Notes under the pieces: model-generated
Database searches by the model: none
Told to the model about the DNA's origin: nothing
The model's input: only the letters and a program-made list of their open reading frames with translations
In this document: one piece after another, positions 38,592 to 54,812 of the stretch
How the letters are laid out: each line of letters starts with the position of its first letter
Position numbering within the stretch: position 1 is the first letter of the stretch
Program-made: the position numbers and the translations under genes
From: Alphaproteobacteria bacterium
GTDB taxonomy: Bacteria > Pseudomonadota > Alphaproteobacteria > UBA9219 > RFNS01
Length of the DNA: 64,000 bases
Assembly: GCA_037200005.1 (NCBI GenBank)
Contig: JBBCGY010000001.1
Coordinates: 1,263,812-1,327,811 of the forward strand
Direction of reading: 5' to 3'

Positions 38592-39233
38592 TTATTGCTT
38601 GGGCGCTTGATGTTTCAGCATAAGTTTCTGCAATTGCTTTCTGAATTTCGGATCGGGCAAAAGACCCGCCACGGTTCCCAACAACTCGCTCGCCTGCCGA
38701 AAGCCTTTGACGATATCCTGTTCAGAGCGTTCGGCGACCAACTCGCGCACTTCGTTTTGGAGGCCACTGTCCGGACGTGGCGTGGCCGCCGGCGCTCGAA
38801 CCGCCTCCAATTGGGCGGCGCGGAAATCGGCTTGGGCATCGGATCCCTGCTCGGCTGGAACCATCTGGCCACCGGTAAATCTGAACTTTGCCAGTTCATA
38901 ATAATTCTGTTTAGCAAGCGCGTTCGCCTCCTCATGGCGGCTTGCCAATATCGCCAGGAATTCTTCTTCCGGAGGCTTGTCCACGATTTTCGTGTTGAGG
39001 CTAAGGCCTACTTTCCCAAGAACGCTCTTCAATTCACGAATGCTCTGCCTGCCGAAATTTTTCAATTTCGTGAAATCGCCTTCCGATTTCTGAATCAACT
39101 GCGCCACGAAAACAACATTTTCGGCAGAAAAAGCATTGGCAATACGAACCGACATGAACAAACAGTCCGTCGACATGGAAAATAACGGGTTAGCCTTAAC
39201 CTCGTCCATCGTTATGCGTGAGCCGTCCGTCAT
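38592..39233 (-). CDS. RNA polymerase alpha-CTD-like protein, paralogue 1
   Basis: The 213-residue protein has an N-terminal region (about 20-82) like the C-terminal domain of RNA polymerase alpha: CLFMSVRIANAFSAENVVFV, then QLIQKSEGDFTKLKNFGRQS and IRELKSVLGKVGLSLN. This has the helix-hairpin-helix pattern of DNA- and regulator-contacting alpha-CTD. There is no alpha N-terminal domain, so it cannot assemble as a normal alpha subunit. A variable middle (about 90-160) is followed by a conserved tail, LVAERSEQDIVKGFRQASEL and LGTVAGLLPDPKFRKQLQKL. The tail DNA is nearly identical to its neighbour. Role unknown; interaction with promoters or RNA polymerase is inference. Confidence 0.7.
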   Translation of the reverse strand: MTDGSRITMDEVKANPLFSMSTDCLFMSVRIANAFSAENVVFVAQLIQKSEGDFTKLKNFGRQSIRELKSVLGKVGLSLNTKIVDKPPEEEFLAILASRHEEANALAKQNYYELAKFRFTGGQMVPAEQGSDAQADFRAAQLEAVRAPAATPRPDSGLQNEVRELVAERSEQDIVKGFRQASELLGTVAGLLPDPKFRKQLQKLMLKHQAPKQ

Positions 39234-39276
39234 CCATCAATCCTTCGTTATAGTATGCTCGCATGGCTATGAGCGA

Positions 39277-39969
39277 TTATTGCTTGGGCGCCTGATATTT
39301 CAGCACAAGCTTCTGCAATTGCTTTCTGAATTTCGGATCGGGCAAAAGACCCGCCACGGTTCCCAATAGCTCGCCCGCCTGCTGAAAGCCTTTGACGATA
39401 TCTTGTTCAGAGCGCTCGGCGATGAGCGCCGCAACCTCTTGAAGACCTGGGGGCTTTTTCTGGACAGGCTGCTTCGCGGCCTTACCGGGCTGCGGAAGGA
39501 TCGCCGGCCCTTGAGTAAGAGAGTGAAGAATATCCGTGACAAGATCGTTTTTAACGACTTGAGAAGCTCCCTGCTTGAAAGCCGCGGCGGCGGAATCGTC
39601 AGGCACTGTCCGCCCGCCGCTGAATCTTTCCATTTGCGCATGGCCCAACGCAACATCGGCTTCCTTTTGACGGCCTTTTAAAATCGCAAGGAACTCCGGA
39701 TCGGAAGGCTTGCCTTCGATTTGGGTATTGAGGCTAAGGCCATGGTCTTCTCCCAATACTGTCCGCAGTTCGACAATGGTTTTTTTGCCACAGTTTTTCG
39801 TGTGCAGCAGATCTCCCTCGGTCTTCTGTATCAGCTGGCCGATATGCTCAATGCCCGCATTCTGCATCACATTAATCGCACGAATGGAAAGATTCAGATA
39901 GTCCACCGAAGCGGCAAATATAAGATTCGAGTTAACGTCTTCCATCGTTATGATTGTTTTTTCCGCCAT
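39277..39969 (-). CDS. RNA polymerase alpha-CTD-like protein, paralogue 2
   Basis: The 230-residue paralogue starts at ATG 39969 (MAEKTIITMEDVNSNLIFAA) with GGGGA upstream; the frame extends to 39999. Residues 24-84 are alpha-CTD-like: YLNLSIRAINVMQNAGIEHI, then GQLIQKTEGDLLHTKNCGKK and TIVELRTVLGEDHGLSLN. The C-terminal 50 residues match paralogue 1 almost exactly, while the middle is different. The pair is in one orientation 43 bp apart, probably one operon transcribed away from the island. It lies just outside the left island boundary. Confidence 0.7.
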   Translation of the reverse strand: MAEKTIITMEDVNSNLIFAASVDYLNLSIRAINVMQNAGIEHIGQLIQKTEGDLLHTKNCGKKTIVELRTVLGEDHGLSLNTQIEGKPSDPEFLAILKGRQKEADVALGHAQMERFSGGRTVPDDSAAAAFKQGASQVVKNDLVTDILHSLTQGPAILPQPGKAAKQPVQKKPPGLQEVAALIAERSEQDIVKGFQQAGELLGTVAGLLPDPKFRKQLQKLVLKYQAPKQ

Positions 39970-40123
39970 CGATAATCCCCACTTTTCGGCAATATGCAAA
40001 AATGAAAACTATCCGCAGAAAGCAGCGCGCAGCAAGCGCGTATTTACTTTCACGCGCTGCCTGAGCGCCAATGATGGTTAAAATTCTTGGGGATGACGCT
40101 CCTACGCCCGCAAGGGCGTAGGG

Positions 40124-40168
40124 TGGTCGGAGAAAGAGGATTTGAACCTCCGGCCCCTGCCTCCCGAA
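40124..40168. other. Left attachment site (displaced tRNA-Pro 3' end)
   Basis: These 45 bp are identical to 54736-54780, the 3' part of tRNA-Pro including the encoded CCA. The rest of the tRNA is missing here. Immediately to the left is a hairpin (CCTACGCCC / GGGCGTAGG, 40101-40122) that was probably the original terminator of the tRNA gene. Confidence 0.92.
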
Positions 40169-40252
40169 CGGCGTCCCATATAACGCAATCAGTGGGTTGG
40201 CGACGAAGCCCGTCGTCCAAAACCGCATAATTTCCATTGTTACTCATGGATT

Positions 40253-40269
40253 TTATTACAGTGTAATAA
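40253..40269. repeat. 17-bp palindrome near the left island end
   Basis: TTATTACA and TGTAATAA flank one G. The same arms occur in the longer palindrome near the right end (54675-54700). A recombinase or excisionase binding site is possible. Confidence 0.6.
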
Positions 40270-40307
40270 TCCGAATTAAAGAGGGCGCGGCAGACAATTT
40301 TGCTTCG

Positions 40308-40544
40308 CTACTCAAAATGAAATTCTTGCTTCAAGATATTAAAAAGAGAAAAAGCCCCCTCACGATCGAGCTGAATGACTTGGCTTTGCTTGCCTGGAAC
40401 GGCCCTGCTATCGCGGCCATAACTGTTGATCTGCAAGAAGATGCTCCCATCATCGTTTCTGAAACTGGTATAGGTAGCTTTAATTTCATCATGAACGGTT
40501 TGACGCTCATGATCTTTACGGTCGAAATTTCTAATTAATGCCAT
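40308..40544 (-). CDS. Small conserved island protein, 78 residues
   Basis: The protein starts MALIRNFDRKDHERQTVHDE and contains KATYTSFRNDDGSIFLQINS, YGRDSRAVPGKQSQVIQLDR and a hydrophobic end. I recall proteins of this type from many genomic islands, sometimes misannotated as methionyl-tRNA formyltransferase, with no known function. GGAGG lies 7 bases before the ATG. It sits 36 bp downstream of a broken ribbon-helix-helix gene, so the two once formed a pair. Confidence 0.7.
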   Translation of the reverse strand: MALIRNFDRKDHERQTVHDEIKATYTSFRNDDGSIFLQINSYGRDSRAVPGKQSQVIQLDREGAFSLFNILKQEFHFE

Positions 40545-40580
40545 TCCCGTCCTCCATTGCCATGAGGCAAAACTTTTAGC

Positions 40581-40756
40581 TTACTCATTGTCTTGCTGAC
40601 TTTTACGGCGTCGCATCAAATATTCCTTTATCGCTTTTCTGGTGATCCAAGCAAGGCTGCGTTCTTCTTCTTTTGCTATTCGTTCAAGCTCAATGCGCGC
40701 GGCGATTCCAGTGTTACCGTCAATCGACCGCTTGTATCACCAGTGGCGGCTACCAT
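40581..40756 (-). pseudogene. Frameshifted ribbon-helix-helix (CopG-like) regulator
   Basis: From ATG 40756 the frame reads MVAATGDTSGRLTVTLES and then runs into a stop. The other frame continues AARIELERIAKEEERSLAWI and TRKAIKEYLMRRRKSQQDNE to a stop at 40581. Together these are a typical ribbon-helix-helix protein (beta strand LTVTLE, then two helices). The span of 176 bp is one short of a multiple of three, consistent with a single-base deletion near 40702. Such proteins act as antitoxins or autorepressors. Confidence 0.7.
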
Positions 40757-40927
40757 AGGAGGCCTCGTTTAATGTGTGATGATGCTAGCTGCATCACTAA
40801 GATTCATATTAATGTTCATATATTATTTTTCAACTATCTTTTCGTAATTATGAATGTTATTATATTAGCGTTGCATCAGATGTGGAAAACTGCAATGAAA
40901 TCAATGATATTAAATGACAGGCGCAAA

Positions 40928-43252
40928 ATGCCAAGAACGGACAAGGAAGAAATGCCTCAGGGAATACAGGAATACATTGCCCACCTCGAAGCTATCGCCG
41001 CAGTCTTTAATGACCATGCGAGAACCTTAGGCTTGGGCGTATACCTCGATGCATCAAATGTAATTGCGGCCGCAAAGAGCGGCATAGGATTCTCTAAAAT
41101 CAAGAGATTCATAGACAGGGCAGATGATTCCGGCGTTCTGCACGATTCGCAACTTATGACGGCCCTGGATTGTATTGGGGAACTTTTGACTTCGCCTAAT
41201 CAGAATGGTCTCGTAACGGGCGCCATGCAATCTGGCAAAACGACCACGTCTTTAGCGCTGCAATTTTCTGGCCCTATTGTATATCTTCTTACGGGACGTC
41301 GTCTTTACCCGATTTATCTCATCACTAGCCATACCAGCCAAGAAGACCAGACGAAAACCGAGATTGCTCGATTCTTGGACTTTTATGGCGAACTAGCCAT
41401 CGTTGTGGATGAGAAAAATCGTTGCACGCTTATCGACTATGTCACGCAATTTGCCCTCGATGAAGGGTTTAAGCATTCACCCACGGTTAATACCTATCGC
41501 GAACATATTCTACAAAAAGCCTTGCCCGATACGTTCGCCGGCCCCCGATTGGATGACTTTATTCATCGCCGTGCGCCTGGGGAAGGCATAAAGCAAATAG
41601 CAAATCTTTGCCGGCGAGCGGCGTCGAAGGGATTTGAACCTTTGCTATTAATCGATGAACCACAATATGGAGCCAGCGATCGCCAAGTCACAACGGAAGA
41701 CGACAAGGTCGAATGGCGGTCTTGCGTATTAGCTCAAATTTTCAATCGTATCAAAGAAGCACTCGGCAAGGACGCCCCCGCCCATAGCTTTATTGGCCTT
41801 TCGGCCACCCCTTATGAACTGCATGACGTTAGGGCTGTATGGCAGGTAACTCAATACCTGACCTCCGCCTACTCTGGCTTTAATTATTTCGGTGGAATAG
41901 TTCTTGACCCTGACGCGGCAGTGACACCCCCCAGAACAATAAGCTTTGCGGATTTTAGTGCCGAAATCGAAGTGCCCTTTCTTGCTAAAGTCGACCTTAG
42001 AGCCTACGACGCGCGTCCGCGGGCGTTTCAATGGTTCGCGGATGAGAATGAGTATCTCGGAACCCAAGATGAATATCGCAAGGACGTAGAACAGGCATTA
42101 CGAAAGGCCATTATGTATATGGCTGGGAATGGAACCACGCCGGCCACGGGAATCTGCATAAGATTATTCAACAACAATAATCGCTCACATGAACTCCTGC
42201 GACGCCTATACCTGAACAACCAGGAAATCGAAATAATCGAATACTTCGGCTCGGATCATCATGGCCGAAGCGTTAAGCGAGCCATCGCGGAACGGTCTTG
42301 TCCAGATCTACCTTTCTTGATCGCGGTTACCAACCGCGCGCGCATGGGCGATGCGTTTCCAAATGAAGTCGAATGGTTCTTGGAATTTTCGAAAAAAGCA
42401 GCCGACCTGAACTCTTTATTGCAAGGTCTGCTAGGACGCGCCTGTGGATATGGAAAAAACTCCACCGTTATTATGTCCAACGAGAATATCCGTATCGTTG
42501 ACGCATATAAAAATAGGCAAGGTGGTTTTGTCCACAAGCCAAGTCGGCATAGCGTTCTAGTCGGAGGGTATCGACGGGGAGCGCCGACCAGCCTTATCCG
42601 CATTAGGCGGGATATGAACGATCCCCTAATTGCAAAATATTTCGCGCGCATCGATCAAGAAATTGTCAAACCATACACCATTCAAACCGAGCCTACCGCC
42701 TCTCTCAAAACCACGCGCACCAGAGGTGAAGATCACCGGAGAGGGCCTATTTTGACTATCGCGGAGGAAATCGGGCTGTTTGAATATATAGAAGCCGAAG
42801 AAAATAGGAGACGCCTTTTTCCCGCTTACGAACCATTCCAAATCGTGCGCGCTGGTGACGAAGTTTCTGATCCAAAAGACTCAACCCGTAAATTTCGTTA
42901 TACCTTGGGTGAAAATGGCGATTGCCGATTTACCTTTCGTACTCTGCGTAAAGAGAGTGCCCACAGCGGTATCCGCAGCCGTGGTCTTGGCCGCAAGGAT
43001 GCTACGGACCCAGAACAAGCAGGCAATACGCTAGAGCCTCAGGTAAATATGGTGAAGATCGACCCAGACAATGGTCAAATCATTGAAAATGAGAATGCAA
43101 AGGGATGGTGGCGCGCGGAAGCCGTGACGCTTCCACTTCTTAAACCAGTCCGCACATTACGAGATGGAGAAGCAACTTATCCCGTTCAGCATGGACCGTA
43201 TTCAGGGTTACTTGACGATGAAGAAAGAACGGCGGCCGGCTATGAGGAATAG
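40928..43252 (+). CDS. Superfamily 2 helicase-like ATPase of a defence island
   Basis: About 774 residues from ATG 40928 (MPRTDKEEMPQGIQEYIAHL). Walker A is VTGAMQSGKTTTS (near 98-105), the DExx box LLLIDEPQYGASD (near 243) and motif III FIGLSATPYELHDV (near 290). A motif VI-like LLQGLLGRACGYGK is near 500. The QSGKT loop and the overall order resemble helicases linked to restriction systems, including Z1-domain proteins; I cannot confirm a Z1 domain. The C-terminal 200 residues are unrecognised. The start is uncertain: the frame is open to 40673, and an ATG at 40772 follows AGGAGG, but the encoded N-terminus is unlikely; ATG 40952 is also possible. It is convergent with the Eco29kI-like gene, 18 bp away. 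Confidence 0.78.
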   Translation: MPRTDKEEMPQGIQEYIAHLEAIAAVFNDHARTLGLGVYLDASNVIAAAKSGIGFSKIKRFIDRADDSGVLHDSQLMTALDCIGELLTSPNQNGLVTGAMQSGKTTTSLALQFSGPIVYLLTGRRLYPIYLITSHTSQEDQTKTEIARFLDFYGELAIVVDEKNRCTLIDYVTQFALDEGFKHSPTVNTYREHILQKALPDTFAGPRLDDFIHRRAPGEGIKQIANLCRRAASKGFEPLLLIDEPQYGASDRQVTTEDDKVEWRSCVLAQIFNRIKEALGKDAPAHSFIGLSATPYELHDVRAVWQVTQYLTSAYSGFNYFGGIVLDPDAAVTPPRTISFADFSAEIEVPFLAKVDLRAYDARPRAFQWFADENEYLGTQDEYRKDVEQALRKAIMYMAGNGTTPATGICIRLFNNNNRSHELLRRLYLNNQEIEIIEYFGSDHHGRSVKRAIAERSCPDLPFLIAVTNRARMGDAFPNEVEWFLEFSKKAADLNSLLQGLLGRACGYGKNSTVIMSNENIRIVDAYKNRQGGFVHKPSRHSVLVGGYRRGAPTSLIRIRRDMNDPLIAKYFARIDQEIVKPYTIQTEPTASLKTTRTRGEDHRRGPILTIAEEIGLFEYIEAEENRRRLFPAYEPFQIVRAGDEVSDPKDSTRKFRYTLGENGDCRFTFRTLRKESAHSGIRSRGLGRKDATDPEQAGNTLEPQVNMVKIDPDNGQIIENENAKGWWRAEAVTLPLLKPVRTLRDGEATYPVQHGPYSGLLDDEERTAAGYEE

Positions 43253-43270
43253 CGGTTCTGCCGAATGGAT

Positions 43271-43957
43271 TTACGCCTCATCGGCGCTTTCCTCGGCTTC
43301 TTCTTGTTCTTTGGCTTGCTGTTCGGCGATTGCCTTCGGCAGTTTCGCCAAGGGACGACCAGCGAGATAATCGGTGACCTGTTGCTCCAAGAATTTTGGC
43401 GTTAGTCCGCCTTCAGCCAGCTTAACCGCGAACTTACGGCCAGGATGGAGCACGTCCCATGGCGATTTGTATTGCGTGGCGCGGCGATTTCCGGGGTCTT
43501 TGTTTCCGAAACCATCAATCGCGCGATTCCAGACCGGCTTGAACGTTTCGATGAGCATGTTTTCGCCAAGCGGAATCCATATGTCATCGACGATTAAATG
43601 CCTGAAGTAAAAATCGGCGAGATCGAGATTATTGGCCTCCTCTATGGAGGTAGCATGTTGGCGGAGACGATCGACCAAGGCATTGCCTTTCGCCGCGTCC
43701 TTGGTAAGTCCGCCTTTCCGCCCGCCTTTGGGTATTGCCTTGCCGATATAGATAGGGCTTTTGAATCCGCCCTTCTGGTTCTTGGCGGCGATAGGTACAT
43801 AAAAAGATAGTTTTCCGGTGTAATAAATGACGTAAATGCCCGCGCCCTTGATGCCATCCGTCGCGGTCAGCGGCAATGGATCGCGCTCCAGCAACTCGGT
43901 TTCGATGCTGCGCGCGAGGTTGAATTTATCAAGAGGATTATACGGCGTATCATTCAT
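43271..43957 (-). CDS. Eco29kI-like GIY-YIG restriction endonuclease
   Basis: The 228-residue protein has the GIY-YIG nuclease pattern of the Eco29kI family: GAGIYVIYYTGKLSFYVPIA (about 39-58), SPIYIGKAIPKGGRKG, DRLRQHATSIEEANNLDL, and MLIETFKPVWNRAIDGFG with the metal-binding Glu and catalytic Asn. It should cut unmethylated DNA at the site protected by the adjacent methyltransferase. Eco29kI itself recognises CCGCGG, but specificity here is not known. A Glu/Ala-rich tail ends the protein. It follows the methyltransferase gene by 20 bp on the same strand. Confidence 0.85.
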   Translation of the reverse strand: MNDTPYNPLDKFNLARSIETELLERDPLPLTATDGIKGAGIYVIYYTGKLSFYVPIAAKNQKGGFKSPIYIGKAIPKGGRKGGLTKDAAKGNALVDRLRQHATSIEEANNLDLADFYFRHLIVDDIWIPLGENMLIETFKPVWNRAIDGFGNKDPGNRRATQYKSPWDVLHPGRKFAVKLAEGGLTPKFLEQQVTDYLAGRPLAKLPKAIAEQQAKEQEEAEESADEA

Positions 43958-43977
43958 GGGTAGACCCTACAGCCGAA

Positions 43978-45162
43978 TCAGGCCGTTCGCCTCGTTTTTG
44001 TTTTCCGGCCCTGGCCGCAGGCGAGAGCTTTCCCCATGCTCGACGCGATGGCGGTCGCCATCGACACGGGCACGGCATTGCCAAGCTGCCGCATCGTTTC
44101 CGTCCACGATCCCGGAAAGATGAAATTGTCGGGAAAATCCTGGAGCCGCGCGGATTCCCTGACCGTCAAATATCGTACCTGTCCATCGGGGAAAAGCAGC
44201 ATGTTCTCTCCCCCTGGCACTCCATGATCTCCCGCTTTTAATGCCTTCGAGGGTTCGTCGAGCACGCTGCCGGTATGCCCCGCATAGGAACGAGCGCCCG
44301 GCTGGAAATGATGGTTTGGAATCCCATGCTTGCTCGATTTTTCTGGATCGGGAAGATCGGCCAGGGCGTCCCTTACCGTTCGCCAAGGCTTGGTATTGGG
44401 CTTGACGTTCAAAGCACCGCCCTTAAGCGATTTACTGCCTCCGATGATGGCGTCGCGAGTCTTGGACGAAATCCGGTGCCTCTTCCAATAATCGCGAGTG
44501 ATGAGCTGATCCCAAATCAGGGCATCACGCGAATGCGTGGGGTTGGGGAAGTTCCACTCGATTCCTAGGTCAAGACGAACGCCAGCGATGATGACACGAT
44601 GCCTTTTTTGGGCTGCCCCATAATCTGCCGCGTTGATCTTATGAATTTCGACCCGATAAAGGGGGCCATTGCCATGGCCAGCCGGAAGTCGCTTCAGGCG
44701 CTCTAAATGTTCATTCCAGCTTTCGCCCGGCTTCGCCATCATGGCGGGACGGCGCAAGCGCTCGACGATATATTGCAAATAGTCGGCGAAGGCCTCGCGC
44801 GCCAAGCCGCGGACGTTCTCGAATAGGAACATCTTGGGCGTCAGTTCCCGCACGGCTCGAATGGCATGCGGCCACATATCGCGAGGATCATTCGGCCCTT
44901 TATGCTTGCCCCCAATGGAAAATGGTTGGCAAGGCGGGCCACCAGCGACCAGGTCTATTTCTCCCATTCCCTGGAAAATCACGTCGCGCACGTCGCCGTG
45001 GTGGATGGGCCATCCTTGGGTGGGGCCGCCGCGCCCGGCATTTGCCTTGATGGTGGCGTATGCGTCGCCGTTCCATTCCACCATCAGAACAGGCTCGAAG
45101 CCCGCGCCTTGCAGGCCTAACGCCAGCCCCCCAGCCCCGGTGAACAACTCCACGCTATGCAT
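43978..45162 (-). CDS. DNA (cytosine-5) methyltransferase
   Basis: The 394-residue enzyme carries motif I ELFTGAGGLALGLQGAGF (5-22), motif IV GGPPCQPFSIGGK with catalytic Cys78 (PCQ at 77-79), motif VI FENVRG (114-119), motif VIII QKRHRVIIAGVR and motif X GNAVPVSMATAIA. It methylates cytosine C5 and would protect the host from the adjacent Eco29kI-like nuclease. The target-recognition region (about 230-310) is between motifs VIII and IX. It overlaps the vsr gene by 8 bp, so the order vsr-M-R is one operon. Confidence 0.95.
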   Translation of the reverse strand: MHSVELFTGAGGLALGLQGAGFEPVLMVEWNGDAYATIKANAGRGGPTQGWPIHHGDVRDVIFQGMGEIDLVAGGPPCQPFSIGGKHKGPNDPRDMWPHAIRAVRELTPKMFLFENVRGLAREAFADYLQYIVERLRRPAMMAKPGESWNEHLERLKRLPAGHGNGPLYRVEIHKINAADYGAAQKRHRVIIAGVRLDLGIEWNFPNPTHSRDALIWDQLITRDYWKRHRISSKTRDAIIGGSKSLKGGALNVKPNTKPWRTVRDALADLPDPEKSSKHGIPNHHFQPGARSYAGHTGSVLDEPSKALKAGDHGVPGGENMLLFPDGQVRYLTVRESARLQDFPDNFIFPGSWTETMRQLGNAVPVSMATAIASSMGKALACGQGRKTKTRRTA

Positions 45163-45565
45163 CCAAGAATCTCCTAATGGTTTTTTCCAGTTTTTCTTGG
45201 TCCTTCAATCCACATTCCCATAGCACCAAAACGCTCCAGCCCATCTTGCGAATGGCGCGACGAACGGCGGCATCTCGGTTTTTGTTGGAGGATATTTTCC
45301 CCAGCCAAAAATCCACGCGCGATTTGGGTACCCGCGCCCGCCCGGAATGACATGGATGTCCATGCCAAAAGCAGCCATGTATGAAAATCGCCTTTTGCAG
45401 ACGCTTCAGCACGATGTCCGGCGATCCTGGCAGCTTGGAATCGTGTAGCCGATAGCGATACCCCATCCCGTGCACGATCCGGCGAACAAGCAATTCCGGC
45501 TGGGTGTGCTTGGAACGAACGAGGCTCATGCGCTTGCTTCGTTCCTTGGGCGTCAAGGTATCCAA
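45155..45565 (-). CDS. vsr: Very short patch repair endonuclease (Vsr)
   Basis: The 136-residue protein has the Vsr active site: Asp50 in GSPDIVLKRLQKAIFIHG and the His residues of GCFWHGHPC (63-72), with the zinc-site Cys residues. Vsr nicks next to T in T:G mismatches formed by deamination of 5-methylcytosine, so it fits the adjacent cytosine-5 methyltransferase. It starts MDTLTPKERSKRMSLVRSKH. It is first in the vsr-M-R operon. Confidence 0.94.
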   Translation of the reverse strand: MDTLTPKERSKRMSLVRSKHTQPELLVRRIVHGMGYRYRLHDSKLPGSPDIVLKRLQKAIFIHGCFWHGHPCHSGRARVPKSRVDFWLGKISSNKNRDAAVRRAIRKMGWSVLVLWECGLKDQEKLEKTIRRFLDA

Positions 45566-45952
45566 GTCGCATCACCGTTCCTTATGGTTGGCTCCGAGAC
45601 GGGAAAATATCCGATTCGAAACGTTTTGCCCTATCTTTTTGACTCTATTAGCAAAGATGGTCAAGTGTTCTCTTTATGTTCTCAGTCTTTTGGAATCGTT
45701 TTTCGACATGTTGTAACCAGAAAGACTCATCCGCCTGATGGGGGGTTTTCGGTTTCTTCGTTAATTTTCATGGCCTTGAATTGAAACCGATGTAAGAAAG
45801 TCTTTGGCTCACAAAGGCAGACTACGCCGACTCTTGCGGTCGCTTCATCCGCCTTTGTGAATAAAATCCGTAGCCCACATAAGCCTCAATGAGAACCTAG
45901 CCGTGTCCGAAGGGAAGCTATGACGCCTTGCATGGCGTGACGGCAGTATATT
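45566..45952. other. Intergenic region with a large inverted repeat
   Basis: These 387 bp between vsr and the 830-residue helicase gene hold no convincing gene. They include an exact 10-bp inverted repeat, TCACAAAGGC (45809-45818) and GCCTTTGTGA (45851-45860), around a 32-base loop with an inner CGAC/GTCG stem. This is a candidate structured RNA or regulatory site. A small GACGCC/GGCG hairpin near 45927-45942 may help end the helicase transcript. The vsr promoter should be in the left part. Confidence 0.6.
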
Positions 45953-48445
45953 TTAAAGTTTCGCATCCTTACGCGACGAATAATTTTTGGAAGCCGGTCT
46001 TTGCGGATAAAATGCATCTTCGGCATTATGCGCAGGCTCCATGCCCAGTTCCTTTTTAATCCATTCAAGGACATTTCCATGAACGCAAAGGGCGGCTTGC
46101 TCCTCTGGATCGGCTAACGGCAGCCATTGCTTTGAATATCTCAAAGTCTGCTTGTACTTTCCTTTTCCAATCTCTGCTTGCCGCTCTTCCCCAACGCGCA
46201 TTCCGCGCGATTGGGATTTAAAGCTGGCAAACAAGGTCCGCACAAACTCCGTTTCCGGACTTGTGACCATTGGATTGGCTTCCAACGCCTCAACCACATT
46301 ACCAGCAGTGAGCCATTGCGACGTTTTGCACTGGCGGATAGAGGGCTGCTCTGCCCAAGCAATGGCTTTCTCTTCATCCGCGCCATATATATGGCGATAG
46401 GCAGGAACAAGAACGTCAGGGAATAGGAAGAACTCCGATGCACCTTCCCTATTTCTGTAGAATCCGAAGTGATCATATGAGAAATCCAGGCCATTCACTT
46501 CGGCGCGTCGCGCATAGGGCTTACGGTGGAAAAAGGCATGCTGCAATTCTTGCCAAAGCTTTCCTATTTGCTGATCATCGCAGCCAAGCAGACGTTTGGC
46601 GTTTTCTTTTCCAAGAACTTCCAACGGCGCTTTTTCCAAACGGCCATAAAGTGTATGCTCGCAAAGATGGATTAAGCCTTCATCAATGCAAAATACTTCC
46701 CGTGCTTTTTGCTGATAAAATCCCATGCGCCAAACAGGGAACATTTTTCCGCGCACATGCAGAACGTCTTGCTGATTAGCCACAATGTCTACGAATTTTT
46801 CCCGAGACTGCCTTTTTTCATAGGCTGCCTGCAAAGGAGCATAGACTCGTTCCTGCAATATGGTTTGGTCAATGCCGAGTGCCTGCGCCATGTCTTCCAA
46901 AACCAGCATATTCTTGAGCTTAATCGGAAGACCGTCTACATAACGCTGCTGCTTTCGCTCGCGGGCGAACATTTCCAAATGCCGTTCGGTATAAAAGACT
47001 TTAATCCCCTCTATATTCGGCCAGGGCTCAGGGTCAGACGGGTTGTTATGTTTTCCTGCGGTGGGCGGAAATTCATATCCACCGGGAAGCATGTAAAGTC
47101 CGCCCAGCAGCTCGCCGACTACCAACTGGTCAATGCCTTCAATATAAGGGCTTAGATAAATGGCGGTTTTTCTCCCGTCATGCCTGCGGCTGGCGCGTGT
47201 GTGAAATTGCACGATCTTGCCCGGCGAGAGGCTGGGCGCATGCTGCACGGTCATTTCCAGCGGAGGAAAGTCAATGCCACGCCCCCATAATTTGCATTGC
47301 ACGACCGCTTTTAGTTTTCCCTCCATGAAGGCGCGCTGGATGAGTCCATGCTCTTCCCGATCCATATTTCCCCACACAACGCCCGCGTAACCTTCACCAA
47401 ACGCTTCATTCAGTTTTTGGGCGATATGAATGCCATGCTGCACGTTCACGGCCTGATGCAGTTGCATCATGTCTTTCAAGGGTTTTCCTGTTTTGGGATG
47501 GAGGCCTTTCCTGATGACCTGCAATAACGCGTTGTCACTACCTGTTTGCTCGATAAACCGCATTTGTTCGGCTTCCGAATAATCCTCCCAACGATTGGTC
47601 TTGGGCTGGATAATAGAAGTCGGATCGATTTCGCGGCTGACGATGATGTTGACATGCGGCGCGATTTCCTTGCGCTGAACGCCCTCGAGATGCGTAATTT
47701 CGCATATAGGCTTTTTGCCGCCGAAAAGATAATCGCCGATTGTTTTTCCGCTTCTGAATAGCGGAGTCGCGGTGAATCCAATAATCAGACAGTTAGGGAA
47801 GAAAGCTTCCTGATAAAACTCTTTAGTGACATCCCCGCGCGGCTTGTCGTCGACTTCGTCGATCAATACGACATCAAATTCTTCCGGCTTTATCGAAGGT
47901 GCTGGCAGGCGCGTTTTGAGGTGAGCGCGGCCATGCAAAGCCCTGGCGGAATCATGGGTCGCGATTACAATAGCCTTCTTTAAAATTTCTCGTTTCTTAT
48001 CGTCGGGCAGATCGGCATGGTATAGGCCGATATTATCCTCGTTAAAACGATCTCCAAATATGCCCGCCTTACGCGCGCCGGGTTCTTCGTCTTTTTCTCC
48101 TAAAAGCCTGCTGCCCCACTGGTCAACCAGTTGATTGGTCGGAACCGTTATCAAAACGCGCTTGCATAACGCGGGATCGTTCAGCACATAGCGTCCGTTG
48201 GGCATGGTATTGATGCCTACGATGAAATCGCCGCCGCTGATGGTTTTGCCTAGGCCGCCGGGCGCGACGACGTGGCCGTTGGTATGAAGCTGCTGAGTTT
48301 CTGGATCGGACTCATGGAAATAAGCCACGATGCCATGCCCGATTTCTTGCTGGCTCCCCTCGCGCAGTACATGATCGCCACTCTCAAGATGGCGCTCGTA
48401 GCGCCTGATCATCGTGCGAACGTTATTGACGAGGGGATCGACCAT
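45953..48445 (-). CDS. Superfamily 2 helicase, 830 residues, of a two-gene unit
   Basis: This large ATPase shows motif I APGGLGKTIS (61-70), motif Ia ITVPTNQLVDQWG, motif II VLIDEVDD (193-200), motif III IGFTATPLF (222-230), motif V LWGRGIDFPP (386-395) and motif VI QFHTRASRR (413-421). It therefore has a complete type I/III restriction-type helicase core in residues 1-440. The C-terminal 390 residues are unrecognised, apart from a possible helix-turn-helix near 490 (LEDMAQALGIDQTILQERVY). It starts 3 bp after the stop of the 1161-residue gene, so the two are certainly cotranscribed. It is not paralogous in detail to the helicase at 40.9-43.3 kb. Confidence 0.82.
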   Translation of the reverse strand: MVDPLVNNVRTMIRRYERHLESGDHVLREGSQQEIGHGIVAYFHESDPETQQLHTNGHVVAPGGLGKTISGGDFIVGINTMPNGRYVLNDPALCKRVLITVPTNQLVDQWGSRLLGEKDEEPGARKAGIFGDRFNEDNIGLYHADLPDDKKREILKKAIVIATHDSARALHGRAHLKTRLPAPSIKPEEFDVVLIDEVDDKPRGDVTKEFYQEAFFPNCLIIGFTATPLFRSGKTIGDYLFGGKKPICEITHLEGVQRKEIAPHVNIIVSREIDPTSIIQPKTNRWEDYSEAEQMRFIEQTGSDNALLQVIRKGLHPKTGKPLKDMMQLHQAVNVQHGIHIAQKLNEAFGEGYAGVVWGNMDREEHGLIQRAFMEGKLKAVVQCKLWGRGIDFPPLEMTVQHAPSLSPGKIVQFHTRASRRHDGRKTAIYLSPYIEGIDQLVVGELLGGLYMLPGGYEFPPTAGKHNNPSDPEPWPNIEGIKVFYTERHLEMFARERKQQRYVDGLPIKLKNMLVLEDMAQALGIDQTILQERVYAPLQAAYEKRQSREKFVDIVANQQDVLHVRGKMFPVWRMGFYQQKAREVFCIDEGLIHLCEHTLYGRLEKAPLEVLGKENAKRLLGCDDQQIGKLWQELQHAFFHRKPYARRAEVNGLDFSYDHFGFYRNREGASEFFLFPDVLVPAYRHIYGADEEKAIAWAEQPSIRQCKTSQWLTAGNVVEALEANPMVTSPETEFVRTLFASFKSQSRGMRVGEERQAEIGKGKYKQTLRYSKQWLPLADPEEQAALCVHGNVLEWIKKELGMEPAHNAEDAFYPQRPASKNYSSRKDAKL

Positions 48446-48448
48446 AGA

Positions 48449-51400
48449 TTAACCCAATTGAAGTCTTGTCTGGGATGAACTGTCGACAGGCGCACTTCTG
48501 GAGGGTTCGAAATCCGCCTCCGCTGGCGCTTTATGCCAGTCCCTGGGCAGCGTCAGTTGGAAGCATTCTTGATACGTTTTCTCTACAGCACGAATAATGC
48601 CTTTGCGAATTTGCGCCGCGCGATATTTCAGCGGCTTCTTGCGCTTACTCTCCTGGCTGTTATCTCCTAATGCAATGGAGCTATAGGCCTCGTCTGCATA
48701 CCAGCGAACCTCGCTGTGAACCTTGGCGAGAAACCCATCGATCTTATCAGCCTTGTCGTTAGGCACCGGCACCACGAAAGTCACCGGTTTTCTCGCCGCA
48801 CCGCCTTCGCTTTCGTAAACAAGTTCCGGTATGGGCTTGATCGTCCCCCTCTGATCGCCGGTCAGGCTGCGAATGGCTTGAATTGTGAGCTTTATGGCAC
48901 TATCGTTCGTTTCGCGCTTATCCAGCGTGACCCCAATATCGCGCTCATAACGCGCCATGTCGTCCAGGAAATGTTGCAACGGCTGATCGCCGATATAGAC
49001 TTCATCCAGCATGGCATGGTTTTTCTTCACGCGCCATTCATGATCGGTGGAACGCATGTGCCGCTGTAAGCTAGGAATAAACCCCTCGAAAACTTGCTGC
49101 CCTGTTCCACTGTTTGCGCCAAGCAAAGATTCCAAAGCCCTGGCGACGGCCAGCTTCTGACTGCGCGTATGGAGATTCAGAGAGCGCGTGCGTACGGCCT
49201 CTCCCATTACCGGCTGATCTTTGTCACCAACATGAAAATGAAGGTCGCAATGCCAGAATGGATTTTCGCCACCGACATCCAAATGCATGGAAACCGGAGC
49301 AAGAGTAATTTTCTGGCTGCCCCGCGATGAAACATGAATAAGGGTGTTATTCTCAAAGCCAGGAAGATTGAAGCGCTCCGCCGTTGCCCATTCCTTGCCC
49401 TGCTCTTCCAGCCAGTATTGAAAGCTCTCCATGACGTCGCGTTTGGTCACATGAATGCGCTGGCCTTCCGATGTGCGCCGCTCTCCCATTCTTTGCAGGA
49501 AATCGACCACATAGCCCGCGCGGCTATCGAGTTCACGTTGTTCCGTTTCCTCGCCGTCGCACAACGCGGCAAGACCTAAAGGAATGCTGAACGTCAGTTT
49601 ATCCTTCTTCGAATATGGGTTTGTAGACGTGAAGAACACTGTATGCATGCCGGAACGATGCTTTATATCGAAACTTTCCGCAGGCAGAGGCAGCGATGTG
49701 TTGAGATCGATGGCGTGATCTCCAGCGGCGGTAAGATCACGAGCGGGAACGATCCCTTCCGTATTGTAAATCATGCTTTGCACGGCTATTTTTAGATCGA
49801 CCGCGTCTTCCATCGTCAGAGGAATGCCGCGTTCCGCATAGGCTTGATCGTACTTCTCAAGCGTATAATTGGCCTTTTGAGCTTTTCTCCCATCAGCGTC
49901 TTCACCTCTGGAAAAGAGCATTTGAATAGGGAAATCCGGCCTGCGAAGGTCGATACGACATTCAAATCTATTAAGCTCCTTGTTTTGCGCCTGCATCAAA
50001 TACATCTGGGCGTCGGCAAGCAGGCGCGTTCGCGTTTCTTCAAAAGCCTCGTCACGCTTGATCATTCGTTCGAGAATCTCATCTTCCGTGAGCGCGCGCG
50101 CCGGGCTAAGAACGGCCTCGCTTGGCTTGGCTTGCACATCGGTTGCGACTTGCACGGACTCGGCAGGTTTTTCGGACGGAGCCTCCGGCGCTTTTGCTGG
50201 GGCAAGCGACGGATTCTCGACAGGCGGCAGCGCAGCCGTAATATCGGCTGCCGCTGCCGGAAAAGTCGACACACCTGCTCCGTTCTGTACGGATTCAGTT
50301 GGTTTTTCCGGCGCAGGCAGCAGAGGGGGACTATTATCGACCGGCTTCAGCATCTCCGGTTTATCCACTGGCGGCACGATAATGCCGATCCCCGCCAGCA
50401 ACATTCTGGCTTTTTCTCCGCGCTCCCATACCAATAATGCGCGCTTTCCCTCGCCGCTTTCAGCATGAGAAGAAAGGTTGCTATGCAGGGGCAGCGTATA
50501 TTTATCACGCAATTCCTTCAGCGACTTCTCGTCACCCAATGCGGCAATGACGAGGCCTGAAAACTCAGCGATATGCTGTTTCAGCGCATTGTTACGCTCC
50601 AAATCGCCGATGCCAAGCTTCGGGTGCTTCTTGCCATCGACAGCAAAAATCTTCTGCATGGCCTGCACGAGATTTTCGCGCGTCGCGGCGGCGACAACGG
50701 GAACCTTGCTCTTACCGTTCACGGGAATAACGTGCGCGAATTCCAGCGGGCGCATGATTTCATCGCCAAACAGCACGGATGCCAATTCGGCATGAGGCGG
50801 AAATTTGGCATTCATATATGCGAGTGTCCCGAATGGCTTTAGCTGCCCACTCAACCAGCTCATGCGCGCGATATCGTCATTGCGCTCAGGAGAATTGCTT
50901 GAATGTGCCTTGTCAGCCTCGCGGAAAATGCGCCGTATTACCACGCCGTTTAGAGCAACGGGGACGGGGGTGTTATCTTCTTTTTTGGGTTTTTCTTCTT
51001 CGATTTTTACGTCATCGACCCTCGGAGATGTAACGTCGGATTTTGCCGCGAGAGCTTCTTGTTGTATTTGTGGCTTTGGCGCTTCTATTTCCTTGAGGCG
51101 GCGAGCATGGCCCAAAAGTTCCAGGATATTATCTCCCAGAAAACCGTCAGAGAATGTACTTTTTTCTCCAATTGCGGCCTGTACTCGATGAGAGTTCCCG
51201 AACGTTAACAAGGCAGGAGATTTTCCACGGAATTCTTGCTTAAACGGAGGAATCACTGTCAAATCCTGACGAGATTTCATCGTTGTTAGTGCATATATGG
51301 CCATTAGATATGCAAAATGGCTTTGTTGATTCAGTTTTTCAGCCATATCCTCTTCAAATTTTTTCATTTGAAAAGATGCAGGCAAGCTCAGCGGATATAT

Positions 51401-51934
51401 CCGCTGAGCTTGCATATGCCCCGGTGTTCCAAATGTCATCGAGATTGGGCTATTGAGCGACGGATATAGATGGCCCTCATTGCCCTGGATAAGGGTAACC
51501 CTAATCCCAGATTTTTTGCTCTGGCGACCGATGTCTTCTATAAAAACGCCTTGCTTATACGCATTTCCGCCATGCTTGATATCCCATTCTAACCACATGA
51601 GGGGATATGGTGGCGAGTATAACTGAGGAGATTTTTCTAGATGCGAAATAGATTGCTGAATCTGTTTTGCACTAGAATTACGTTTGTTCACTGAATCATT
51701 TATGACGTTGAACACATCTGTATCCAGAGCATAACCCGGGCTTTTTTCAATGCAATGAGCGAGCCAGACGATATCCCTGTCGTTAACGGGTATCGCCATG
51801 AGTTTTTCTGCCGAAAGTTCGGTATATTCATTGGTCTTACGCGCATCCGTCAACATGGCATACGCGCGGAACTGACTAGACAGCGCAATATCTTGTCTCA
51901 GCGATAATGTCGCAGGGTCATATGTTTTATTCAT
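48449..51934 (-). CDS. Unrecognised 1161-residue island protein
   Basis: I cannot assign this protein. An N-terminal domain (about 1-270) includes YSPPYPLMWLEWDIKHGG and IRVTLIQGNEGHLYPSLNSP, a pattern reminiscent of uncharacterised alphaproteobacterial phage and plasmid proteins. Then come a charged linker (about 280-330), a second domain (about 335-525), a Pro/Ala-rich linker (about 535-650), and a large C-terminal region (about 660-1120) with mixed alpha/beta composition and several His residues (FWHCDLHFHVGD). There is no Walker motif, signal peptide or membrane helix. It is the first gene of the unit with the 830-residue helicase. GC content is lower than the backbone. Confidence 0.7.
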   Translation of the reverse strand: MNKTYDPATLSLRQDIALSSQFRAYAMLTDARKTNEYTELSAEKLMAIPVNDRDIVWLAHCIEKSPGYALDTDVFNVINDSVNKRNSSAKQIQQSISHLEKSPQLYSPPYPLMWLEWDIKHGGNAYKQGVFIEDIGRQSKKSGIRVTLIQGNEGHLYPSLNSPISMTFGTPGHMQAQRIYPLSLPASFQMKKFEEDMAEKLNQQSHFAYLMAIYALTTMKSRQDLTVIPPFKQEFRGKSPALLTFGNSHRVQAAIGEKSTFSDGFLGDNILELLGHARRLKEIEAPKPQIQQEALAAKSDVTSPRVDDVKIEEEKPKKEDNTPVPVALNGVVIRRIFREADKAHSSNSPERNDDIARMSWLSGQLKPFGTLAYMNAKFPPHAELASVLFGDEIMRPLEFAHVIPVNGKSKVPVVAAATRENLVQAMQKIFAVDGKKHPKLGIGDLERNNALKQHIAEFSGLVIAALGDEKSLKELRDKYTLPLHSNLSSHAESGEGKRALLVWERGEKARMLLAGIGIIVPPVDKPEMLKPVDNSPPLLPAPEKPTESVQNGAGVSTFPAAAADITAALPPVENPSLAPAKAPEAPSEKPAESVQVATDVQAKPSEAVLSPARALTEDEILERMIKRDEAFEETRTRLLADAQMYLMQAQNKELNRFECRIDLRRPDFPIQMLFSRGEDADGRKAQKANYTLEKYDQAYAERGIPLTMEDAVDLKIAVQSMIYNTEGIVPARDLTAAGDHAIDLNTSLPLPAESFDIKHRSGMHTVFFTSTNPYSKKDKLTFSIPLGLAALCDGEETEQRELDSRAGYVVDFLQRMGERRTSEGQRIHVTKRDVMESFQYWLEEQGKEWATAERFNLPGFENNTLIHVSSRGSQKITLAPVSMHLDVGGENPFWHCDLHFHVGDKDQPVMGEAVRTRSLNLHTRSQKLAVARALESLLGANSGTGQQVFEGFIPSLQRHMRSTDHEWRVKKNHAMLDEVYIGDQPLQHFLDDMARYERDIGVTLDKRETNDSAIKLTIQAIRSLTGDQRGTIKPIPELVYESEGGAARKPVTFVVPVPNDKADKIDGFLAKVHSEVRWYADEAYSSIALGDNSQESKRKKPLKYRAAQIRKGIIRAVEKTYQECFQLTLPRDWHKAPAEADFEPSRSAPVDSSSQTRLQLG

Positions 51935-52295
51935 ACTGTAAACTGCTCTTATAAATTTTATTCAGAACTCCGAAACGCATACAATATGCCGAAATCATGA
52001 AAGTAAAAAACTTAAACGCTTTCTTTTTCTTGCCAAGCGTCAAATTATTCATTTTTTCTGATTTTACCCAACGCATAAGACACGGCCATTAACCATGTCT
52101 AATGCCTCCCAACTCAAACACGGGGGTGCATCCCCCTATATATGGGAGAACAGACTCGCTTTTCATGACGACGCGCCAATTATTTCATTCTCCCAACATC
52201 GCTCATGTAAACTTTGGACGCCATGGAATGTCTGGAGAGAATGGGAGATATTATCGGACACTCCGCCAAAAATTTCCTGAAACTATTGAATTTTC

Positions 52296-52323
52296 TTGAC
52301 TTTCCGCGATCTCGTGATATAGA
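52296..52323 (+). promoter_or_regulatory. Sigma-70-type promoter for the MobC-like gene
   Basis: The -35 box TTGACT (52296-52301) and the -10 box TATAGA (52318-52323) are 16 bp apart. Transcription would begin near 52330 and run through the two hairpins into the gene at 52454. Confidence 0.6.
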
Positions 52324-52353
52324 TATAGTATCAGCATAGATGACCTTTCCGTG

Positions 52354-52433
52354 GCCGCTTGGATTCTGTCTCCGGCGGCTTTTTTGTTGCCCTCACGAAC
52401 CCAAGCCGGTTTTTTCCGCGCTTGGGTTTTTTT
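52354..52433 (+). terminator. Two tandem terminator-like hairpins in the leader
   Basis: The first has GCCGC/GCGGC arms (52354-52358, 52375-52379) followed by six T. The second, much stronger, has arms AACCCAAGC and GCTTGGGTT plus an inner CGG/CCG (52398-52428) and ends in seven T. Both lie between promoter and start codon, which suggests attenuation of downstream genes. Confidence 0.75.
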
Positions 52434-52453
52434 ATTGCCCGCGAGGAGGCCGC

Positions 52454-53038
52454 ATGTCCGAAGACGATGCCCCTTCCTTGCCGATCAAACCTCTGCTCCA
52501 TAAATCGGCGCGATCCGTTCACCGGCTCCAAGGAGCTTATGCGGGTCTAAAAGATGTTCGACATTCATCGGACAAGCCCGTCAGCCATGATGATAGTACA
52601 GGCGGTAGGACTAAAAGCTACGCGCAAGTTGCGACTTTGGTCAGACCACGGGTGGTCAGACCAAAGTCATGCGGGCTGAAGCCCAATCGGAAACGCCCCT
52701 ACCGCCTCATGGGAAGGTTCTCGAAGGAAGAACGAAACGCAGTCATTTCAAAGGCGACGGCGGCCCGGTTGTCGGTCAATGAATTCATTCGCCTGTCGAC
52801 GCTGGAAACCGATTACGCGGCGTCTCTTAATCCGGCCTTGCGGCAATTGTTCGTCGCCGTCCACCGGGAGCTTTGCAGGCAGGGACAAGATTTGGGGCGG
52901 ATAGCCGATCACCTGGGCGCGAATTTCCTGTCGCCCAACGAAACGAATTCCATGCTTGGCATGATCGGCTGGGATTTAATGGCCGCCATTCGAGCCGTCA
53001 CGAACGCCCTAGCCGAAGGGCGAAGCCCGCCCGATTAA
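52454..53038 (+). CDS. MobC-like mobilisation/relaxosome accessory protein
   Basis: The 194-residue protein starts at ATG 52454, preceded by GAGGAGG at good distance; the frame extends to 52340 through the terminator hairpins, which is implausible as coding. The basic N-terminal 90 residues are disordered. The C-terminal 110 residues fit the MobC pattern: RFSKEERNAVISKATAARLS and VNEFIRLSTLE as a ribbon-helix-helix-like start, then GQDLGRIADHLGANFLSPNE. MobC-type proteins help relaxases at oriT. No relaxase is in the island, so it could be mobilised only with outside help. Confidence 0.7.
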   Translation: MSEDDAPSLPIKPLLHKSARSVHRLQGAYAGLKDVRHSSDKPVSHDDSTGGRTKSYAQVATLVRPRVVRPKSCGLKPNRKRPYRLMGRFSKEERNAVISKATAARLSVNEFIRLSTLETDYAASLNPALRQLFVAVHRELCRQGQDLGRIADHLGANFLSPNETNSMLGMIGWDLMAAIRAVTNALAEGRSPPD

Positions 53039-53124
53039 GGGCCTGCCCGTTCCGAACTCTCAAACGCCTCTTTCGCCGGAAGGGGCGTTTTTTATTTCCA
53101 ACAACCAGCAAAGGAGGAATCGCC

Positions 53125-53484
53125 ATGAGCGATAGCAACGGCGCGTTACCGGCACGGCACTTCACCGTGCAAACACTGGCCCGATATTGGGAAGTCTCGC
53201 CCAGCCATATCTACAACCTCGTTCATAGCAACACGCTTCGCCATCTGCGGATCGGCAAGGCCATTCGCATTCCAAGTCATTTTGTCAAAGAATTTGAGGA
53301 GGCGGCATGTCAAATCACAAGGAGAAATATCGACTCTGGCAGCATCCAAACGGAACAATTTATGTCATCTGGACGGAACGGGACGCAACAAGCAGCACCG
53401 GCGCGCAGACAAAACGCGTTTCAACGGGGGCAACGGATTGGAACGCCGCCGAACAGTACCGCGCCCAATTCATCGCGGGACTAA
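53125..53484 (+). CDS. AlpA/excisionase-like DNA-binding protein
   Basis: The 119-residue protein begins at ATG 53125 after a perfect AAGGAGG. Residues 10-60 form an excisionase-type winged helix: FTVQTLARYWEVSPSHIYNL followed by VHSNTLRHLRIGKAIRIPSH. These proteins direct excision or regulate integrase genes. The frame continues 178 bp into the integrase gene in another phase. The last 60 residues (Gln/Arg/Asn-rich) are therefore encoded by the overlap and are probably unstructured. Confidence 0.8.
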   Translation: MSDSNGALPARHFTVQTLARYWEVSPSHIYNLVHSNTLRHLRIGKAIRIPSHFVKEFEEAACQITRRNIDSGSIQTEQFMSSGRNGTQQAAPARRQNAFQRGQRIGTPPNSTAPNSSRD

Positions 53485-54341
53485 ATAATCCGGCCCCGCC
53501 TGCGGAGCCGACGATTGGCTATCTGCTCGACCGTTATCGGAACGAACATGGGCCGAAAACCCGCTCGCCAGAAACGATTGATTTCCATCTGAAGGTACTC
53601 AAGCCCTTCTTTGGCAATCTAATGCCGAGCCATGTCAGCAATAAATTGCTTGAACAATACGCCCAGCGGCAGGGAGGAATTTCTAATGGCACGATCTTGC
53701 GTCAATTGAGCACTTTGAAGGCCGCTTTACGCTATGCTGCCGGCAACAGGTGGATCGCGCCCTTGCCGCCGTTCAAAATGCCCGTGCGCAAGCCGCCGCC
53801 GCGCGACCTGTGGCTTACACGGGAACAGGTGGCTACGCTGCTGGAGAAGGCAAAAACGCCGCATCTTCGCCTTTTCATCTTGCTGGCGGTCTCCACGGCA
53901 GCGCGGTCGGGCGCGATCCTTGATTTGAAATGGTCGCAAATCGATTTCGCGGAACGCCTGATCGATTTCGGCGCGGGATGGGGCAACAAGCGCCGCGCCA
54001 TCGTGCCGATGAACGACGACGTTCACGCGGCCCTGAAAACGGCGAGGGAGTTAGCGCAGACCGAGCACGTCGTCGAATTTAACGGCAAGCCGATAAAATC
54101 GGTCAAGGGAGCGTTCTGGAGCCTGTGCAATGATTGCCGCATCAAAGCCAGCCCGCACGTCCTGCGCCACACGGCGGCGACATGGCTGGTCATGGACGGC
54201 GTACCGTTACGGGAAGTCGCCCGCTTGCTCGGCAATAGCGAGGCGATGGTGGAACAGGTTTACGGGAAGCATTCGCCAGACTATTTGCGGCGGGCCGTGC
54301 GCGCCTTGGCCGTTCAGAAGCCTAAAACTCTGGAGCCATAG
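53307..54341 (+). CDS. Tyrosine recombinase (island integrase)
   Basis: The 344-residue integrase has an N-terminal arm-binding/SAM-like region (about 70-150) and a catalytic domain with Arg200 (STAARSGAILDL), His284 and Arg287 (SPHVLRHTAATW) and nucleophile Tyr319 (VEQVYGKHSP). The usual GH of box III is GN (309-310). GAGGAGG lies before ATG 53307, inside the excisionase gene. It is adjacent to and points at the tRNA-Pro gene, whose 3' end is duplicated at the island ends, so it is the likely enzyme of integration. Confidence 0.93.
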   Translation: MSNHKEKYRLWQHPNGTIYVIWTERDATSSTGAQTKRVSTGATDWNAAEQYRAQFIAGLNNPAPPAEPTIGYLLDRYRNEHGPKTRSPETIDFHLKVLKPFFGNLMPSHVSNKLLEQYAQRQGGISNGTILRQLSTLKAALRYAAGNRWIAPLPPFKMPVRKPPPRDLWLTREQVATLLEKAKTPHLRLFILLAVSTAARSGAILDLKWSQIDFAERLIDFGAGWGNKRRAIVPMNDDVHAALKTARELAQTEHVVEFNGKPIKSVKGAFWSLCNDCRIKASPHVLRHTAATWLVMDGVPLREVARLLGNSEAMVEQVYGKHSPDYLRRAVRALAVQKPKTLEP

Positions 54342-54369
54342 AGCCAAAATAACAGATCGAAGATAGCGG

Positions 54370-54654
54370 CTATTTTTTTGACTCGTGCTTCCGGAATTGA
54401 TTCTCACATGCATTCCATAGAGCGCCGCCAAATCCAGCCCCACCCGCTGGAAACAGGATTATTCCGACCAATAAGTATTTCTCCCAGTTGAAGGGTAGGC
54501 CAAGCCATCGTGGCACGACGGCCATTAAAATGAACATGGGCAAGCCCCAGCCCAATACTCCATGAAGAAGAATAAATCTCATGCGTCCTTTGGCGCGAAT
54601 AACACGCCATTTCTCATGCGCCTTTTCAGTCCATTTCGAGCTAGGAATTTTCAT
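54370..54654 (-). CDS. Small membrane protein, 94 residues
   Basis: The protein begins MKIPSSKWTEKAHEKWRVIR and has two predicted membrane helices (about 28-48 and 59-78; FILLHGVLGWGLPMFILMAV and LLVGIILFPAGGAGFGGALW), with charged ends. I do not recognise it. It is convergent with the integrase and lies in the island next to the right end. No good Shine-Dalgarno is visible, and a TTG three codons earlier is an alternative start. Confidence 0.55.
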   Translation of the reverse strand: MKIPSSKWTEKAHEKWRVIRAKGRMRFILLHGVLGWGLPMFILMAVVPRWLGLPFNWEKYLLVGIILFPAGGAGFGGALWNACENQFRKHESKK

Positions 54655-54674
54655 GTGCGGCAAACTATACGGCC

Positions 54675-54700
54675 AAAATTATTACACCTGTAATAATTTT
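54675..54700. repeat. 26-bp palindrome near the right island end
   Basis: AAAATTATTACA and TGTAATAATTTT are perfect 12-bp arms around CC. The inner TTATTACA/TGTAATAA is shared with the palindrome at 40253. It lies 36 bp inside the right attachment site. Confidence 0.7.
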
Positions 54701-54735
54701 CAGAAACGGGCAACGACCTAACCTATTGAAAAAAT

Positions 54736-54780
54736 TGGTCGGAGAAAGAGGATTTGAACCTCCGGCCCCTGCCTCCCGAA
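54736..54780. other. Right attachment site within tRNA-Pro
   Basis: The 45-bp sequence from the CCA end into the anticodon loop is identical to 40124-40168. Together they mark the island ends. Confidence 0.92.
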
Positions 54781-54812
54781 AGCAGTGCTCTACCAGGCTG
54801 AGCTATTCTCCG
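54736..54812 (-). tRNA. tRNA-Pro (CGG anticodon)
   Basis: The minus strand folds as a cloverleaf: acceptor arms CGGAGAA and TTCTCCG, D-arm TAGCTCAGCCTGGTAGAGCA, anticodon stem CTGCT/GGCAG with loop TTCGGGA (anticodon CGG, reading CCG), T-arm with GGTTCAAATC, discriminator A and encoded CCA. Its 3' 45 bp form the right attachment site, so the tRNA stays intact after integration. Confidence 0.93.

Follow-up and report, generated by a model that had tools for sequence, protein, structure and literature searches.

Two long reading frames, adjacent on one strand of a 64,000-nucleotide stretch of an alphaproteobacterial genome (hereafter the window), had been singled out in an earlier note as a candidate two-gene defence system, composed of a large protein of unrecognised family and a helicase. 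This raises the question of whether the pair indeed functions in immunity, or whether it serves the mobile DNA on which it resides or has some other role.

The two genes and their products

Both genes of the pair begin with ATG and, as previously described, they are confirmed to lie on the same strand and to be separated by 3 bp (Table 1), a spacing from which we infer a joint function. An uninterrupted frame of 1161 codons lies far outside what chance would produce, and both genes display a coding-type distribution of GC over the three codon positions (0.59-0.61/0.37-0.40/0.53-0.54). Their third-position GC (0.53-0.54) is well below that of the flanking host genes (0.76-0.81), which implies that the pair is foreign DNA. 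We recovered no convincing evidence that parts of the pair resemble one another or are internally repeated (top z of 3.3 in 15 comparisons), and a scan for promoters and terminators yielded no more sites than were seen in shuffled sequences.

Table 1. Positions in the window of the pair, its constituent regions and the other features of the surrounding element
Feature	Position	Strand	Evidence or remark
attL, left 45-bp direct repeat	40124..40168	.	perfect copy of 54736-54780
P-loop/SF2-like ATPase	40673..43252	+	motifs GAMQSGKT, LLIDEPQ, GLSATP read from sequence
Eco29kI-type (GIY-YIG) restriction endonuclease	43271..43957	-	PF09517 9e-61
C5-cytosine methyltransferase	43978..45162	-	PF00145 1e-54; PADLOC MTase_II 2e-124
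Vsr mismatch endonuclease	45155..45565	-	PF03852 2e-30; of the R-M system, not the pair
830-aa SF2 helicase	45953..48445	-	second gene of pair
Helicase C-terminal region, aa 435-830	45956..47143	-	orphan; no family match
Helicase SF2 core, aa 44-434	47144..48316	-	nearest RadD/ResIII-like phage helicases
1161-aa orphan protein	48449..51934	-	first gene of pair; no family match
1161-aa protein, C region, aa 613-1135	48530..50098	-	composition only
1161-aa protein, Pro/Ala-rich linker, aa 521-612	50099..50374	-	21% P, 18% A
1161-aa protein, middle region, aa 326-520	50375..50959	-	composition only
1161-aa protein, KE-rich linker	aa 289-325	-	composition
1161-aa protein, N region, aa 1-288	51071..51934	-	composition only
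MobC/NikA-like mobilisation accessory protein, 232 aa	52340..53038	+	PF21983 1.4e-7
HTH_17 (AlpA/excisionase-like) protein, 119 aa	53125..53484	+	PF12728 7e-8
Tyrosine integrase, 344 aa	53307..54341	+	PF00589 2e-19
attR, right 45-bp repeat, 3' part of tRNA-Pro(CGG)	54736..54780	.	
tRNA-Pro (cgg), integration target	54736..54812	-	ARAGORN + Rfam RF00005

The 830-residue protein is a member of helicase superfamily 2 (SF2), as had been supposed: motifs I (GGLGKT, residues 63-68), II (DEVD, 196-199), III (TATP, 225-228), V (GRGIDFP, 388-394) and VI (QFHTRASRR, 413-421) can all be read directly, and the region from about residue 44 to 434 is matched by Pfam ResIII (4.8e-8) and by PHROG helicase family 16 (4e-25). 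The nearest relatives of this core are not defence helicases but phage and plasmid helicases encoded beside replication or recombination genes (Cas4-type exonuclease, clamp, primase). With the RadD/ResIII-like SF2 helicases of phages (PHROG 16; for example those of Acinetobacter phage HD01 and Pseudomonas phage LPPA15) it shares all five core motifs, at 21-27% identity over about residues 32-434. Unlike these proteins, which are about 550-610 residues long and in several cases contain a cysteine-rich region, the 830-residue helicase lacks such a region and bears a 400-residue C-terminus unrelated to them; furthermore, the phage genes adjoin genes for Cas4-like exonucleases or clamps and not one for an 1161-residue protein. 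Residues 435-830 had no match in the family libraries or sequence collections searched; short, weak matches within 388-450-residue proteins of three genomes (G088, G159 and G385) were taken as chance. When viral and genome contigs were scanned for peptide patterns of whole proteins and fragments, one generic helicase (L108) was the sole relative recovered, and an AlphaFold2 model computed with one relative was unusable (mean pLDDT 31.0).

The 1161-residue protein had no match in Pfam, PADLOC, NCBIfam, PHROGs or PDB sequences, and its fragments returned insignificant matches only from family and sequence libraries. By composition it falls into three parts joined by linkers, the second linker being rich in proline and alanine, in agreement with the multidomain layout, Pro-rich linker and want of recognisable motifs that had been noted. 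A single-sequence AlphaFold2 prediction was likewise unusable (mean pLDDT 34.8). We considered whether this protein might be a relaxase and rejected the idea, there being neither a family match nor an HUH-type motif visible by eye. Family searches revealed no recognisable nuclease, NADase, protease, sensor or other effector domain in either member of the pair.

No relative of the 1161-residue protein was found by tblastn among 72,556 plasmids and 50,697 phage records, by blastn among E. coli genomes, or outside its own genome in the genome samples (up to 385 of the class, 96 of relatives and 179 of the phylum). Scanning viral and genome contigs for peptide patterns, a method that detects close relatives only, also recovered none, and no viral or phage contig searched holds either this protein or the helicase C-terminus. 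The pair was seen once in all the collections searched, these being plasmids, phage records, genome samples and viral contigs. Given the short reach of the pattern scans and the small genome samples, this absence of relatives is no proof. What we have is a real, uncommon and well-placed orphan pair.

The host element and its siblings

The pair is embedded in an integrative element of 14.6 kb (40124-54780), whose ends are a perfect 45-bp direct repeat corresponding to the 3' part of tRNA-Pro(CGG). The defence-type island perceived earlier is therefore real, with its boundaries now fixed by the att repeats. In four other genomes (G002, G003, G005 and G014) the same tRNA-Pro gene has one att copy in the stretches examined and looks empty. 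The element resembles integrative mobilisable elements (IMEs) in its tRNA-gene integration with att repeats, its tyrosine integrase, HTH protein and MobC/NikA-like mobilisation protein, its small size and its accessory cargo; it differs in that no relaxase was recognised among the element's proteins tested, whereas siblings do have one (PF03432). The same genome contains a second MobC locus (C1:1165368; L044/L045) with a relaxase, an XRE-HTH gene and backbone genes for 427- and 130-residue proteins, and it is possible that this locus acts as a helper for the relaxase-less element. The P-loop/SF2-like ATPase at the left end of the element, which probably starts downstream of the listed TTG, had no Pfam, PADLOC or plasmid match and is, after the pair, the third large protein here to escape classification. 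Two paralogues arranged in tandem just outside attL (38592-39999, minus strand) encode RNA polymerase alpha C-terminal domains (PF03118), and their 150-bp 3' ends are 93% identical.

The element also encodes an Eco29kI-type Type II restriction-modification (R-M) system, for which both the endonuclease and its cognate C5-methyltransferase are present; the latter also matches the DruM and DrmMII models, its best PADLOC match being MTase_II. As the pair shares its strand and element with the Vsr gene and begins to its upstream side, at a distance of about 390 bp, it might be thought to comprise accessory genes of this system. However, that intergenic gap is large, and four of four independent Eco29kI loci in other bacteria (L123, L124, L125 and L126) have the arrangement (Vsr)-MTase-REase with no trace of the pair, which indicates that the latter is a separate unit; the proposal is largely refuted and in our view highly improbable.

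In the same order, close relatives of the integrase (E<=1e-60) occur in 9 of 33 genomes, its own genome counted, and MobC relatives in 10 of 33; full-length integrase relatives are 59-76% identical. The usual backbone of these sibling elements consists of genes for an XRE-HTH, a 432-residue and a 129-residue protein, diverging from genes for a 172-residue protein, MobC, a MobA/VirD2-type relaxase, often ArdC, and the integrase, which tRNA genes adjoin in most siblings. Their cargo or adjacent genes include a Type III R-M system with an HKD+SNF2 helicase (L072), a C5-methyltransferase accompanied by Vsr and by LlaJI/McrC-like and AAA proteins (L075), an LmuB-like (Lamassu-like) ATPase between tRNA and integrase along with genes for Type III Res and a DrmD-like protein (L079/L105), Type I R-M systems (L100 and L107), and AbiEii and DUF6088 beside a 1664-residue metalloprotease-like M48-domain protein (L046); both boundaries are fixed for L046 only, and elsewhere the element may end short of some of the genes listed. 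The sibling region of one genome (G017) additionally encodes a LanM-type lanthipeptide synthetase with DUF4135 and LANC_like domains (L105, 9164-12289, minus strand), near the DrmD-like helicase and Type III Res. Giant proteins of 1664 and 1684 residues with an N-terminal Peptidase_M48 domain (L046, 3970-8964; L052, 4186-9240) are encoded next to MobC on siblings, and the former had no PADLOC match.

In one sibling locus (G007:C23; L150/L046) a tRNA-Pro(cgg) array contains copies of att at positions of about 1373, 4877 and 14624, which suggests stacked elements. The 9.7-kb unit there resembles the window element in its tRNA-Pro(cgg) target, in having MobC and an integrase (76% identical to that of the window) with no relaxase, and in carrying one very large, poorly known cargo protein, but its cargo of AbiEii, DUF6088 and the 1664-residue protein has no detectable similarity to the pair. 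As the same site and MobC-integrase backbone are here combined with other cargo, the pair occupies a cargo slot. More generally, sibling proteins show no likeness to the pair beyond generic helicase motifs, and, since siblings with the same integrase carry unrelated cargo, we regard the pair as exchangeable cargo on defence-carrying elements rather than as part of the element core. This lineage-specific family of tRNA-integrating elements, with its shared integrase/MobC backbone and swappable cargo, could be a source from which to mine more systems: in siblings this slot is filled by known R-M, Abi and helicase systems as well as by the other giant proteins.

Defence and its alternatives

Mobile elements commonly carry defence genes (PMC8791490; PMC11389934). 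Based on this, and on the analogy with systems that combine a helicase and a partner, defence is the likeliest role of the pair, which we interpret as bicistronic cargo of an integrative mobilisable-type element and, with confidence poised midway between acceptance and doubt, as an uncharacterised anti-phage or anti-plasmid defence system. The att-bounded element, the foreign codon composition and the complete SF2 motifs are consistent with this proposal, as is the presence of recognised defence genes in the place of the pair on siblings with the same integrase and/or MobC; its location makes a defence role plausible. In such a system the SF2 motor core might translocate on or remodel invading DNA, the orphan protein would supply recognition and/or effector activity, and the C-terminal 400 residues of the helicase could form an interface for the partner or DNA. 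Against it, a pair found once provides no independent co-occurrence with defence genes, and the LanM-type synthetase near a sibling indicates that the cargo of these elements can be non-defence. The want of a recognised effector domain in either protein and the kinship of the helicase core with phage and plasmid helicases, not with those of defence systems, likewise count against it. The sibling elements bear out the earlier suggestion as far as candidacy is concerned, but not as an established system, as the pair was found nowhere else and the partner has no assignable domain, fold or active site. Only tentatively would we go further and envisage an undescribed two-gene immune system, with an SF2 motor bearing an uncharacterised 400-residue C-terminus and a partner founding a new family, whose vehicles would be the tRNA-targeting mobilisable elements of a single alphaproteobacterial order.

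The main rival to defence is that the pair works for the element itself, in replicating it once excised, in stabilising it or in mobilising it in trans; the helicase would be the motor, and the 1161-residue protein would stand in for missing backbone genes as an initiator or accessory factor. The element retains MobC, HTH and integrase genes and lacks the relaxase, ArdC, XRE-HTH, 432-residue and 129-residue genes of its siblings, the pair faces MobC directly, in the position taken by the HTH-432-129 block in siblings, and the affinities of the helicase core are with replication-recombination helicases. Yet no sibling has the pair, including relaxase-less ones such as G007:C23, in which the integrase comes next after MobC and the cargo is unrelated, and neither protein matches a relaxase or primase family; the proposal is thereby weakened, and we judge it rather unlikely. 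The match to PHROG family 16 and the RadD-like phage relatives could alternatively point to a repair, recombination or anti-restriction (counter-defence) function derived from a phage or plasmid, conferring no direct immunity on element or host. As the resemblance extends no further than the generic SF2 core, and none of the phage or viral contigs searched was found to encode the 1161-residue protein or the helicase C-terminus, such a function is distinctly improbable. That the pair is confined to one genome among all those searched would also fit a recent, non-functional or lineage-specific acquisition with no selected function, but two intact long frames with coding-type composition and intact helicase motifs make this very hard to credit.

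Relationship to known systems

Returning to the preferred interpretation of the pair as a defence system, the earlier note had been unable to match it to BREX, DISARM, Zorya, Hachiman or Druantia, and our PADLOC searches matched neither of its proteins to a component of these. The helicase is not a member of their helicase families (BrxHI, DrmA/DrmD, ZorD, HamB and DruE); the only five models reaching E<=1 (mREase_IV at 3e-7, C3a193 and three PbeA) all align over its generic core. The 1161-residue protein hit 0 families, and the other element proteins tested include no partner component of these systems, with Type II R-M and Vsr alone being detected. Judged by such profile comparisons, the pair is a member of none of the five.

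Hachiman and Druantia type III have a two-gene layout, with an SF2 helicase and a partner lacking obvious enzymatic motifs. Although neither protein of the pair matches their components at E<=1 in PADLOC, the organisation is similar: here too an SF2 helicase is encoded beside a partner with no obvious enzymatic motif, in a defence context. Should the pair prove to be a defence system, a partner protein with no known relatives would join the helicase-based immune systems.
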